Assembly (NCBI GenBank): GCA_035934015.1
Contig: DASYYH010000027.1
Span: 186,001-250,000, forward strand
Direction of reading: 5' to 3'
Origin: Candidatus Acidiferrales bacterium
GTDB lineage: Bacteria > Acidobacteriota > Terriglobia > Acidiferrales > UBA7541
Length of the DNA stretch: 64,000 nucleotides
Below, piece after piece: positions 7,137 through 10,945 of this stretch. Under the pieces are notes generated by a model. The model did no database searches. It saw only the letters and a list, made by a program, of their open reading frames with translations, and was not told where the DNA came from. Every line of letters begins with the position of its first letter. Position 1 is the first letter of the stretch. Position numbers and translations under genes: made by a program.

Positions 7137-9623
7137 CTATTCAAATCGGAGGGCGATCATTGGGTCGGACTTCGCGGCGCGATACGCCGGAAGAAGCGCT
7201 GCGATTACAGCCACAAGCATCATCACGCACGTCGCAAATGCAAAACTTACGGGATCGCTTGGACTCACCCCCCACAACATCGAGCGAATCATCTGCGCCG
7301 CGGCAAATCCCGCCGCAACACCAAGCGCGACTCCAGCGAAAACTACAATCACCGTCTCGCGCAAGATCATCTGAAACACATCGCGCGGCTGTGCGCCCAA
7401 CGCCATTCGAATGCCGATTTCGCGAGTCCTTTCCGCAGTGGTATACGACGTCACCCCGTAAACGCCGATCATCGCCAGCAGACCAACGAACAAACTGAAG
7501 GCCATCGCGATCAGTTCCATGGCGCGATTTCGGTGAAGGACGTTGTTCATCCCTTCCATTAGCGACCCATATTTGACAGCGACACCCGAATCAACAGTCC
7601 CTGCTGCACTCTCCAAACGTTTTTCGATCTGGGGAAATGCTCCGGCAACTCGAATTTCATAGCTGCCCAGTCCCGAGCATGAATCCGCGCACTGCGAGAC
7701 TGGCCTATACAAGATGAGAAGGGGCCCGTAATCGGGCCGGCGATATTGAATATCTGCGGCGACGCCGACTACCTCGACGGTGTAGTCCTGCCCCTTGCCG
7801 TTGCTGTCGTTTTCGCGAAATCGAAGCCCGACGGGATTCACTTTCCCAAAAAATGTTTCCGACAAAGTTTTGCTGAGAATCGCTACCGGAAGTGAAGCGC
7901 TTCTGTCGCCGTCATTAAATTCCCGGCCTGTCAGTATCGGAGTGCGCCGGGTTTTGAAGAAATCAGGGGAAACAAAGATTGGAATAGGAGCAAGCCGCCG
8001 CTCCAATCCATTTGACCCATGAACGGCCAGCCGGACCGGGTACATCTGAGAAAATGTGCGAGACCACGACGCGGAAACGACGCCGGGCACGGAACGAAAT
8101 TGCACCAGTAGTTCCTGGCCGACGAATGCTTCGCGCTGTGAGTTTTCGCCGGTCTCCTGCAAGGTCGCATGGGCCACCAGCACGCCCTTAGGGTCATAGC
8201 CCAGATCCGCTGTGAGGAACGCGTGCAGTGTCCGCGCCAGCAAGCCTGCGCTGACGAGCAGCGCCATAGACAACGCAACTTGCACGACAATGACGAGAGA
8301 ATTGGAAATGCGGTTGGTACGTTTCCCCGTCGCCACGCCATTGTTCATCGCGGAATAAAGTGGAATGCGAGTTGCGCGAATCGCCGGCGCCAGCCCAAAC
8401 AGGAGCGCGCAGAACAACGTGATACCTACGACAAAGAAAACGAGCTTCGTGTCCCAAGACAAATCGAGGGAGATTTTCTCGTCGGGCCAGGAGAGCGCCC
8501 ATAACAGCGTTTGGCTAGCCCAGCGTTCGATCAGAAGTCCCGCCGCCGCGCCGATCAGCGACAAGGCAACGCTTTCTGTGAGCAGTTGCCGCACCAGGCG
8601 CCAGCGCGATGCGCCCAGCGCAAGCCGCGTGGCGATCTCGGCTTGGCGTTTCGTAGCACGCGCGAGAAGCAGGTTGCCCAGGTTCGCACAGGCGATGATC
8701 AGAGCGACAGCTGCCATAATCATCAGAAGCAGGACCGTACTCGTCTCGTTCCATAATTCAGCGAGGGCCTCACTCCGAATCGAACTCACTGTGAGAGGCG
8801 TGCGCATAACTGTTCGCTCGCTGGCGTTATCCGATTTTGGCGGCAAAGCTTTGTCTATTTCCGAACTTAGGACTTGCAGCCCGGCGTCGGCCTGGCTCAG
8901 GCTTTCTCCTGGCTTCAGCCTGCCGACGATGGATATTAGTGTGGCTGAATCGTCCAGAGACGGCGTATGTTTTCCGTAGAGCAGCGGATAATCCCGGTAT
9001 GTTCGCTCTGCCTCAAGCGGCATGAATATCTCAGACATTTCTCCGATAACCACACCGAAAAAAGAGCGCGGGGCCACTCCAACGATGCGGAATTCATTCC
9101 CATCCACAAGGATCGTTTGGCCAAGCACGTCTCGCGATTGGCCGTACAACTGACGCCATGATCCGTAGCCGATCACGCATACGGGCGGCGCACCGGGCCG
9201 GTCATCGGAAGGCTGCAAAGCCCGGCCGATAACCGCAGGAACGCCGAGAGTTTGGAAGTAATCTCCGGAAACGTACAAGCCGGAAACTTCTCGGCTTTGC
9301 TTGTCGGCAGTGATGTCGAAATTCGCGTCAAAATAATTGTAGGCAAGGACGCTCGAAAACATATTTTGACGGTCACGAAGGATTTTCCACTCTGCGTATG
9401 TGTGCAAGTTTCCTGCAACCCCGCGTACAACTTCGACGAGCTGATCGGCTCGCTCTATTGGCAAGGGCCTGAGCGCCAGCGCGTACATGACGGAGAAGAT
9501 CGCTGTCGTCGCACCGATTCCCAGCGCGAGCGAGAGAACCGCAACGGCAGTCAGCCCCGCGCTGCTGCGCATCGTGCGCAGGGCATAGCGAATGTCATCG
9601 AAGATCGACTCGAGCAGTCGCAT
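7137..9623 (-). CDS. ADOP-type orphan ABC permease (MacB/FtsX-like)
   Basis: A membrane protein of about 828 residues with two FtsX-like halves. An N-terminal segment (DDIRYALRTMRSSAG) leads into TM1 and a long periplasmic MacB_PCD domain. A central block of three TM helices follows (VLLLMIMAAVALIIACANLGNLLLA onward, with RQAEIATRLALGASRWRLV). A second periplasmic domain and a C-terminal three-TM block close it (TREIGIRMALGAQPRDVFQMIL). The duplicated layout without an ABC ATPase gene nearby is the acidobacterial duplicated orphan permease pattern. The start is taken as ATG 9623; a GTG at 9653 is also in frame and neither has a clear ribosome site. Partner ATPase and substrate are unknown; transport of peptides, toxins or lipoproteins are family-level possibilities only. 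Confidence 0.9.
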   Translation of the reverse strand: MRLLESIFDDIRYALRTMRSSAGLTAVAVLSLALGIGATTAIFSVMYALALRPLPIERADQLVEVVRGVAGNLHTYAEWKILRDRQNMFSSVLAYNYFDANFDITADKQSREVSGLYVSGDYFQTLGVPAVIGRALQPSDDRPGAPPVCVIGYGSWRQLYGQSRDVLGQTILVDGNEFRIVGVAPRSFFGVVIGEMSEIFMPLEAERTYRDYPLLYGKHTPSLDDSATLISIVGRLKPGESLSQADAGLQVLSSEIDKALPPKSDNASERTVMRTPLTVSSIRSEALAELWNETSTVLLLMIMAAVALIIACANLGNLLLARATKRQAEIATRLALGASRWRLVRQLLTESVALSLIGAAAGLLIERWASQTLLWALSWPDEKISLDLSWDTKLVFFVVGITLFCALLFGLAPAIRATRIPLYSAMNNGVATGKRTNRISNSLVIVVQVALSMALLVSAGLLARTLHAFLTADLGYDPKGVLVAHATLQETGENSQREAFVGQELLVQFRSVPGVVSASWSRTFSQMYPVRLAVHGSNGLERRLAPIPIFVSPDFFKTRRTPILTGREFNDGDRSASLPVAILSKTLSETFFGKVNPVGLRFRENDSNGKGQDYTVEVVGVAADIQYRRPDYGPLLILYRPVSQCADSCSGLGSYEIRVAGAFPQIEKRLESAAGTVDSGVAVKYGSLMEGMNNVLHRNRAMELIAMAFSLFVGLLAMIGVYGVTSYTTAERTREIGIRMALGAQPRDVFQMILRETVIVVFAGVALGVAAGFAAAQMIRSMLWGVSPSDPVSFAFATCVMMLVAVIAALLPAYRAAKSDPMIALRFE

Positions 9624-9759
9624 AGACGGATGAACGGATGTTACCACCCGCACGCCGCGCTATGCTCCCTCAGGTCGAGAAGGTTTCGGCGTGGACAACA
9701 GGCAAGTGCCCCTCTCAGAGACAAACCGCTTCGTCAGGCCCTTGCTGCTTCATTTTCTC

Positions 9760-9788
9760 TTGACAGATAGTTAATCATCTGGTACATA
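9760..9788 (+). promoter_or_regulatory. Strong sigma70-type promoter of the predicted small RNA
   Basis: A perfect TTGACA (9760-9765) is followed after 17 bp by TACATA (9783-9788); CATAGT at 9785-9790 is an alternative -10 with a 19-bp spacer. Start would fall around 9794-9797, exactly at the base of the first hairpin. Confidence 0.6.
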
Positions 9789-9794
9789 GTAGTT

Positions 9795-9872
9795 AGCAGC
9801 CTGGAAAAACCCAGGCTGCAAACGATAGCGATGGAAGTATGCAAGGCCACGGCGACGTGGCCTTTTTGTTTT
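9795..9872 (+). ncRNA. Predicted intergenic small RNA with two hairpins
   Basis: A transcript of about 78 nt fits between a consensus promoter and a perfect intrinsic terminator. Hairpin 1 has a perfect 9-bp stem (9796-9804 with 9811-9819) and an A-rich AAAAAC loop. A 23-nt linker, mostly purine, follows. Hairpin 2 has a perfect 9-bp stem (9843-9851 with 9856-9864) capped by a GCGA tetraloop and followed by a U tract. No protein gene follows in this orientation before dcd, which is on the other strand, so it is not an attenuator for a downstream gene. I could not match it to a known riboswitch or sRNA class by eye. An 18-codon ATG frame (9831-9887) crosses the terminator and lacks a ribosome site. 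Confidence 0.55.
9843..9872 (+). terminator. Rho-independent terminator of the small RNA
   Basis: Perfect 9-bp stem AAGGCCACG/CGTGGCCTT with GCGA loop, followed by TTTGTTTT (9865-9872). Confidence 0.8.
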
Positions 9873-10017
9873 CACGAAGCGCCGTAGCTGCATTCTGGCG
9901 AAGGAGTTTCGCTTTTAGGAGGGAACCCGGCACAGCCACTGCAGCGTCGGGCGCGCCGTAGCCAGCCCCCCCTGGGCGGGCCTTGGCGAAGGCGGGCTTT
10001 TTATGCGCTTTAGGAGA

Positions 10018-10133
10018 TTCGAATCGCGAATCTATGAAGAATTAGAACTCGAGGCAACTGACACAGAACAAACAACGGGAGGTCGTTCTAATCGCTGATT
10101 CTTTCGATTTTTTGCGAAATCCAGCGATTAGAA
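10018..10133 (+). repeat. Two-box intergenic element, copy A, with attached inverted repeat
   Basis: The boxes TTCGAATCG (10018) and TTCTAATCG (10086) are 68 bp apart. The segment between them matches copy B at roughly three quarters of positions. The second box is also the left arm of a perfect 12-bp inverted repeat, TTCTAATCGCTG (10086-10097) with CAGCGATTAGAA (10122-10133), whose loop contains a smaller TTTCG/CGAAA stem. Confidence 0.65.
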
Positions 10134-10209
10134 ATCCTCGCCTCCGTCCGCCATTTTTCCCGATTCGGGAAATCGCCCGCCTCGTCAGGCTTGCCCACCG
10201 CGGCGGGAA

Positions 10210-10298
10210 TTCTAATCGAGTTTCTATGAGAAATAAGAACTCAATGCAACTCGCACAAAACAAACAGTCGGACTCATTTCTAATCGAGTTTTCTCGCC
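10210..10298 (+). repeat. Two-box intergenic element, copy B
   Basis: TTCTAATCGAG occurs at 10210 and again at 10278, the same 68-bp period as copy A. Shared internal blocks include TCTATGA, AGAACTC, GCAACT and ACAAACA in the same order. Copy B starts 192 bp after copy A in the same orientation. Confidence 0.65.
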
Positions 10299-10390: not shown

Positions 10391-10945
10391 CTACAGTCGC
10401 GGCAGGACGATTCCCTGCTGCGACTGATACTTGCCCTTTTTGTCTTTGTAGGAGATTTCGCAAACTTCGTCGGATTCGAAAAAAATCACCTGGCAAAGCC
10501 CTTCGTTGGCGTAGATGCGCGCTGGCAGCGGCGTTGTATTGCTGATTTCCAGCGTGACGTAGCCCTCCCACTCCGGCTCGAATGGCGTCACGTTGACGAT
10601 GATTCCGCAGCGCGCGTATGTCGATTTCCCCACGCAGATCGTCAGCACGCTTCGTGGAATGCGGAAATATTCCACGGAGCGCGCCAGCGCAAACGAATTC
10701 GGCGGAACGATGCACACAGGCCCTTTGAACTCCACAAACGAGCGCGCGTCAAATTGCTTCGGATCGACAATCGTCGAATTGACGTTGGTGAAAATGCGAA
10801 ATTCATCGGCTACGCGCATATCGTAGCCATAAGACGACACGCCATAACTGATGACGCCATCGCGCACCTGGCGATCCGCAAACGGCTCGATCATTTTATG
10901 TTCGCGCGCCATCTTCGTTATCCAGCGATCCGACTTCACGCTCAT
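10391..10945 (-). CDS. dcd: dCTP deaminase
   Basis: Dcd converts dCTP to dUTP, feeding dTMP synthesis through dUTPase. The 184-residue protein is close to the usual 185-195. It shows the trimeric dUTPase-like fold motifs: [13 protein letters not shown] near residue 36, [18 protein letters not shown] near 95-113, and the catalytic-glutamate segment [19 protein letters not shown] near 128-146. A GGAGG ribosome site precedes ATG 10945. It is divergent from the HU-like gene. Some family members are bifunctional (dCTP deaminase plus dUTPase); that cannot be decided here. Confidence 0.95.

Follow-up and report, generated by a model that had tools for sequence, protein, structure and literature searches.

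A short transcription unit lying between an ADOP-family permease gene and dcd, in the genome of a soil-dwelling Candidatus Acidiferrales bacterium, is probably the gene-less derivative of a larger element. In its fuller form this element would comprise a promoter, a leader and a terminator, then the gene of an HTH-like protein, then a repeat designated R; deprived of the gene, it would yield a terminated, free-standing RNA some 75 nt long. As far as can be read from the sequences, most copies of the unit, that of the window included (the window being the whole stretch of 64,000 nucleotides analysed here), are without the gene and have the leader joined to R. Acidobacteriota are a dominant soil phylum and, to our knowledge, their small RNAs have been little described. 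Sequence alone here yields an RNA family of strongly conserved structure, together with candidates for a co-regulating promoter motif and for a partner protein. If the proposed reading holds, this would clearly illustrate how small RNA genes can be born, through the spread of the leader of a repeat-associated gene without the gene, a route known from few bacteria.

The unit of the window

All parts of the unit are on the forward strand. It opens with a -35 element, TTGACA (9760..9765), followed by a spacer of 17 nt (9766-9782) and an extended -10 element made of TGG and TACATA (9780..9788, with TACATA at 9783-9788). Within the spacer, between the -35 and -10 elements, AGTTAA (9770..9775; family consensus TAGTTAACT) is a possible operator. 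The predicted small RNA of about 75-78 nt (9795..9872), the ends of which are placed from the spacing to the -10 element and from the T tract, would comprise a first hairpin (9796..9819), a perfect 9-bp helix with arms GCAGCCTGG (9796-9804) and CCAGGCTGC (9811-9819) around the loop AAAAAC (9805-9810). There follows a predicted single-stranded linker, AAACGATAGCGATGGAAGTATGC (9820..9842), and then a predicted intrinsic terminator (9843..9872), with a perfect 9-bp stem (arms AAGGCCACG, 9843-9851, and CGTGGCCTT, 9856-9864), a GNRA-type loop, GCGA (9852-9855), and the T-rich tail TTTGTTTT (9865-9872). The original prediction had named these promoter elements with their 17-bp spacer, the two perfect hairpins and the GCGA loop, all of which are read directly, and its view of the whole as a complete short transcription unit agrees with both the architecture and the conservation of the family. 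The neighbours are also as it described them: the permease ORF (7137..9653, reverse strand) is divergent from the unit, dcd (dCTP deaminase; 10391..10945, reverse strand) is convergent with it, and no gene of the same strand comes next.

Between the terminator and R, small GCGCCGTAGC...GGCGAAGG repeats fill some 120 bp (9879..9999, forward strand). Several occurrences of a short repeat of some 45 bp, GCGCCGTAGCNG..TTTTGGCGAAGGAG, lie next to the unit (at 9879-9999 in the window, and at L011, L012 and L007), and in some copies this repeat is inserted between terminator and R.

The 78-nt transcript of the window is predicted to fold with an energy of -37.4 kcal/mol, against -20.6 +/- 3.1 for shuffled sequences (z -5.5), and its terminator has the most G-C pairs among the 11 terminator-like matches present in 10 kb. 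As a class, such matches are not enriched (11 versus 12.3 in shuffles). TACATA agrees with TATAAT at three of six positions only and is absent from the list returned by a simple promoter scan; by itself, the window promoter is weak evidence. Because promoter and terminator scans alone do not exceed chance over the region, the decision falls to conservation, and that seen in related genomes settles the matter. A fortuitous likeness of intergenic sequence to a promoter and a terminator would agree with scans that are no richer than shuffles, but it is refuted by family E-values reaching 1e-26, by covariation and by a fixed order of modules, and we give it practically no credence.

A dispersed family confined to one genus

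A BLAST search with positions 9740-9890 retrieved further members from the window's genome and, in a sister species, five places; two of these, L007 and L013, lie at contig ends with flanks that match, and could represent a single locus. Covariance models, the first covering promoter and RNA and the second built from 42 members, gave 18 copies in the window's genome and 2, 10, 22 and 20 in four congeneric Candidatus Acidiferrales genomes (E-values 1e-22 to 4e-3), numbers which count model-search matches and are approximate because some of the genomes are fragmented MAGs. The second model found no copies in 34 genomes from elsewhere in the family, order and class, and the first found none in 196 non-congeneric genomes. 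Across some 85,000 GTDB species genomes, a set that may omit the window's own, the exact promoter pattern was met in only two MAGs, both from Candidatus Acidiferrales (JOPF100, JOPF102). Among the genomes searched, the RNA family is confined to one genus of Candidatus Acidiferrales. The original prediction had proposed a free-standing small RNA: the complete unit stands, but the prediction missed the multiplicity of the unit (about 18 copies in this genome), its coupling to R and its role as leader of a protein gene at one locus.

Promoter conservation is marked. In 71 copies the -35 block TTGAC, with 1.4-1.9 bits per position, is together with the -10 element the best conserved part, and in the extended -10 consensus TGGTAYACA the TG, the TA and two of the A positions hold 1.6-2.0 bits. 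The spacer motif TTAAC reaches 0.8-1.5 bits though it lies outside both elements, and is a possible operator. The 11-bp step from TTGAC to TTAAC resembles OmpR-type direct repeats, such as the CiaR site of streptococcal csRNAs (PMC8186281), a resemblance that is only a lead. Allowing at most one mismatch, the extended promoter motif occurs at seven sites of the genome (none for the reversed control); six are family copies, and the seventh precedes a member of the HTH-like gene family (L015, L086).

A family copy is found within about 1.3 kb of dcd in the window genome and in three of the four congeners (G003:C201, G002:C264, G004:C66), with none in G001; gene content downstream of dcd varies in every species, and the place may be a hotspot of insertion or recombination. 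Elsewhere, one family copy has an IS110-like transposase ORF some 500 nt upstream (L083, G000:C3:452049-453080, minus strand).

RNA subfamilies diverge strongly in sequence. At the other extreme, L056 and L058 have transcripts that are 100% identical within unrelated flanks, and the alignment of near-identical copies displays a left edge that is sharp at the -35 element. Comparison between species shows that many copies were inherited vertically at fixed loci. It is doubtful that we are dealing with a selfish miniature element, with hairpins acting as DNA in copying or in the binding of a mobility protein, and a passive promoter. Scattered, partly near-identical copies in unrelated surroundings, the sharp edge and the fixed module formed with R would suit such an element; yet neither terminal inverted repeats nor target duplications were seen in the aligned near-identical copies inspected, no clean empty site was found, many copies descend vertically at the same locus, and the HTH-like protein has no known transposase domain.

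Conservation of the RNA structure

In the 71-sequence alignment, 94% of the cells are paired, compared with 75% after shuffling columns and 25-48% when the structure is slid, partners being shifted by one to three columns. Changes on both sides are found in 15 of 17 pairs: at all nine pairs of the first hairpin, where 91.8% of cells are paired, and at six of the eight pairs modelled in the terminator; these counts, like those also made on 42 sequences, come from alignments fitted to the structure. For that reason, copies at the same locus in different species were also compared by ordinary sequence alignment: 45 changed pairs stay standard and 13 break, while a random single substitution would keep about 17%, with the proviso that a few comparisons share a sequence and are not all independent. 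For the 5' part the median z is -1.7, and in some copies its fold is not significant. Taken together, these alignments indicate that the RNA structure is under selection. The comparison of homologs that the original prediction called for has borne it out on this point: relatives keep the promoter, and compensatory changes are present in both stems.

Two further proposals about the RNA were rejected. An outer helix between the 5' tail and the linker gives a duplex energy of -2.32 with its own partner and of -2.32 across partners, and a short ORF has neither start codon nor frame in common across copies.

The linker is nearly identical in the closest paralogs, largely preserved across four species at an orthologous locus (locus B, below), and purine-rich in the family as a whole (71% A+G). 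Its near identity in close paralogs and its preservation at locus B would suit a family of trans-acting base-pairing small RNAs comparable to the CiaR csRNAs, with a promoter motif common to siblings, two hairpins leaving the linker open to pair with mRNAs, probably via Hfq, and R as an incidental neighbour. The host genome has an Hfq gene, which makes trans activity of the RNA possible. Set against these points, linkers of different subfamilies share a purine bias only, some ten copies have almost no linker, and R accompanies 66 of the 71 copies, a bond that a purely trans-acting RNA would not need. We hold this explanation as a tentative possibility. A sponge of CsrA/RsmA, of the CsrB type with its GGA motifs, was ruled out, the genome being without a CsrA gene (no PF02599 member found in it).

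Coupling to the repeat R

In the window, the first copy of R (10017..10133, forward strand) contains, in order, TTCGAATCG, a first site that is one base off, AATTAGAA (10040-10047), GCAACTGACACAGAACAAAC (10054-10073), TTCTAATCG (10086-10094) and CGATTAGAA (10125-10133); a second copy follows at 10209..10286 (forward strand). In general, R consists of TTCTAATCG, AATTAGAA in inverted orientation and AACTNNCACAAAACAAA, after which TTCTAATCG recurs at a distance of 65-69 nt from its first occurrence. R is present within 250 nt downstream of the unit, on the same strand, in 66 of 71 copies, 56 of them with a correctly spaced second site, and the five that lack it are all members of subfamily B; an R-type site upstream of the unit was seen in two copies only. 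In many copies R comes some 20-30 nt past the terminator, whereas in the window about 120 bp of small repeats intervene. The order and orientation of unit and R are fixed.

R is present in two other genera of the family as well. There are 20 exact matches to its pattern in genome G000, and R also follows units unrelated to the RNA family. Could R be a coding segment, as the pattern SNR..TKQ..SNR at the ends of HTH-like genes might suggest? The distance between its sites is often 65 or 68 nt, not a multiple of three, and class-A R has a stop; this proposal was therefore set aside, and action of R at the DNA or RNA level is likelier.

Several further observations concern R. The bases immediately following the two TTCTAATCG sites agree with each other in a given R but vary from one R to another (GCCAGA, GCGGAA, AGTTT, GGGACA), as if both sites of one R evolved in concert. 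A second type of unit is found about 100-150 nt upstream of R (L164, L167, L169, L170, L174, L175, L176, L181 and L189). Its promoter reads TTGACAAC..GTTAAC..TATAA, and it contains a micro-ORF some 22-24 codons long; these micro-ORFs share an end, for example MVSASNSATLSFPRGSRWRLLAA or MFSSSIVAHRNPRGPRWGICLA before the stop, and form a dispersed family of micropeptides in which RW is conserved. One IMG/VR contig (L228, 1-720 and 2034-3266) carries R, a promoter of the GTTAAC type and, 1.5 kb away, the gene of a site-specific integrase; it may be the edge of a provirus or host sequence. A search for a plasmid origin gave no match.

The HTH-like gene and locus B

Four species share the orthologous locus B, where a gene running in the direction of the unit begins 73-129 nt downstream of it and encodes an uncharacterised protein with the Cys/His pattern F.RH.RKC.IC.H....IE..Y..W....YRHA...GL. 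One gene for the HTH-like protein is at G000:C3:160991-161587, minus strand. Searches of Pfam, NCBIfam, PHROGs and PDB gave no useful match; we infer the name HTH-like from the sequence pattern, and the protein is probably DNA-binding. At the 3' end of the locus-B gene, a full R is in frame in two of the four species, and the other two have an R site located at the stop codon or 60 nt upstream. More generally, 14 of the 15 readable genes of the HTH-like family in the genus have CTAATCG between -173 and +57 nt of the stop codon. Several of these genes carry the same type of promoter, and several paralogs have a leader with a different terminator or with none. The protein is encoded in 23 of 101 genomes, including all eight R-positive genomes of the set, which count as three genera since five of them belong to one genus.

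L123 and L057 have the Rs most similar to that of the locus-B gene (95% and 92%, respectively) and, locus B apart, also the most similar leaders (82-84%). Similarity of leaders and similarity of Rs are correlated in G000 (p 0.0045) and G003 (p 0.0005); no correlation was seen in G004, in G002 or among distant leaders, so that the two ends may recombine independently. From the leader/gene/R layout of locus B, the match between nearest R and nearest leader, and the correlations in two genomes, leader and R appear to be the two ends of one module. With regard to the shared ends looked for in a MITE, promoter/leader and R flank the HTH-like gene at locus B, which makes this locus a candidate for an autonomous, gene-bearing form.

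This arrangement also bears on a purely local role, in which the unit would be a cis-acting 5' control region attenuating or insulating the gene beyond R. In the window genome 13-14 of the 18 downstream genes are co-directional, the downstream flank is often the one conserved between species, as upstream of alaS, and at locus B the HTH-like gene begins close by. But dcd is convergent in the window, about three other copies are also without a co-directional gene, and in most cases 100-330 nt or more, with R in between, separate the unit from the gene; as a general explanation this is unlikely. The original prediction had considered an attenuator improbable. This remains true of the window because dcd is convergent; attenuation is likely at locus B, and may be the ancestral role at loci other than that of the window. 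As to alaS, a short-linker copy with R precedes it in two species (L129 and L130 in G003; L134 in G000), and in G003 two contigs have this arrangement while their upstream sequences are unrelated.

A module that would have shed its gene

We favour a composite module of which the RNA unit would be one end and R the other. RNA polymerase would start at the extended -10 promoter with its shared TTAAC spacer motif and make an RNA of about 75 nt, in which a single-stranded linker separates a 5' hairpin from a hairpin with a GNRA cap, before stopping at the T tract. The fuller module would run from promoter, leader hairpin and terminator to the HTH-like gene, with R at the stop codon of the gene; at locus B the terminator would limit read-through into that gene, in other words act as an attenuator. 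Where the gene is missing, as in the window, the short RNA alone would remain. We infer gene loss at the origin of these copies, with deletion, recombination or transposition as possible routes. The HTH-like protein would act on R or on the promoter. Carried further, this would make an undescribed dispersed Acidobacteriota system, in which the protein recognises R and the co-regulated, structure-conserved RNAs have spread with R to some 20 sites per genome as a genome-wide regulatory layer, an extension that we regard as quite doubtful.

Relation to known systems

A literature search on repeats or small RNAs of Acidobacteria returned nothing on this element. The original prediction had recognised no named RNA class, and indeed none of 4227 Rfam families scores at or above its curated gathering threshold. 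The best weak match is isrK (RF01394), with 21.5 bits against a gathering score of 50; isrK is a two-hairpin small RNA ending in a terminator, and the agreement is one of generic shape only. Acido-1 (RF01686) and Acido-Lenti-1 (RF01687) are structured non-coding RNAs described from Acidobacteria (PMC2864571), and their models give no Rfam match to the window unit.

The streptococcal CiaR csRNAs (PMC8186281, PMC3091779) are likewise siblings under one promoter motif. They measure 87-151 nt and their motif is TTTAAG-N5-TTTAAG, where that found here is TTGAC-N6-TTAAC. The csRNAs are complementary to ribosome binding sites, whereas the purine-rich Acidiferrales linker looks like a ribosome binding site, not like its complement. 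The passages of PMC8186281 consulted mention no repeat attached to csRNAs, in contrast with Acidiferrales units, which are coupled to R.

In Coxiella burnetii, QMITE1 and QMITE2 gave rise to the small RNAs CbsR3, CbsR13 and CbsR16 (PMC5896051). Like the family described here, QMITEs are species-restricted, dispersed elements in tens of copies, which carry or supply sigma-70 promoters and small RNAs, and the positions of their copies are conserved between strains (PMC5896051). QMITEs have terminal inverted repeats and direct repeats (PMC5896051), neither of which was found in the Acidiferrales copies inspected. These MITE-derived small RNAs of Coxiella are the closest precedent; unlike them, the Acidiferrales unit has covarying stems, its own terminator and a fusion to the direct-repeat element R, and it shares both ends with a protein-coding gene family.
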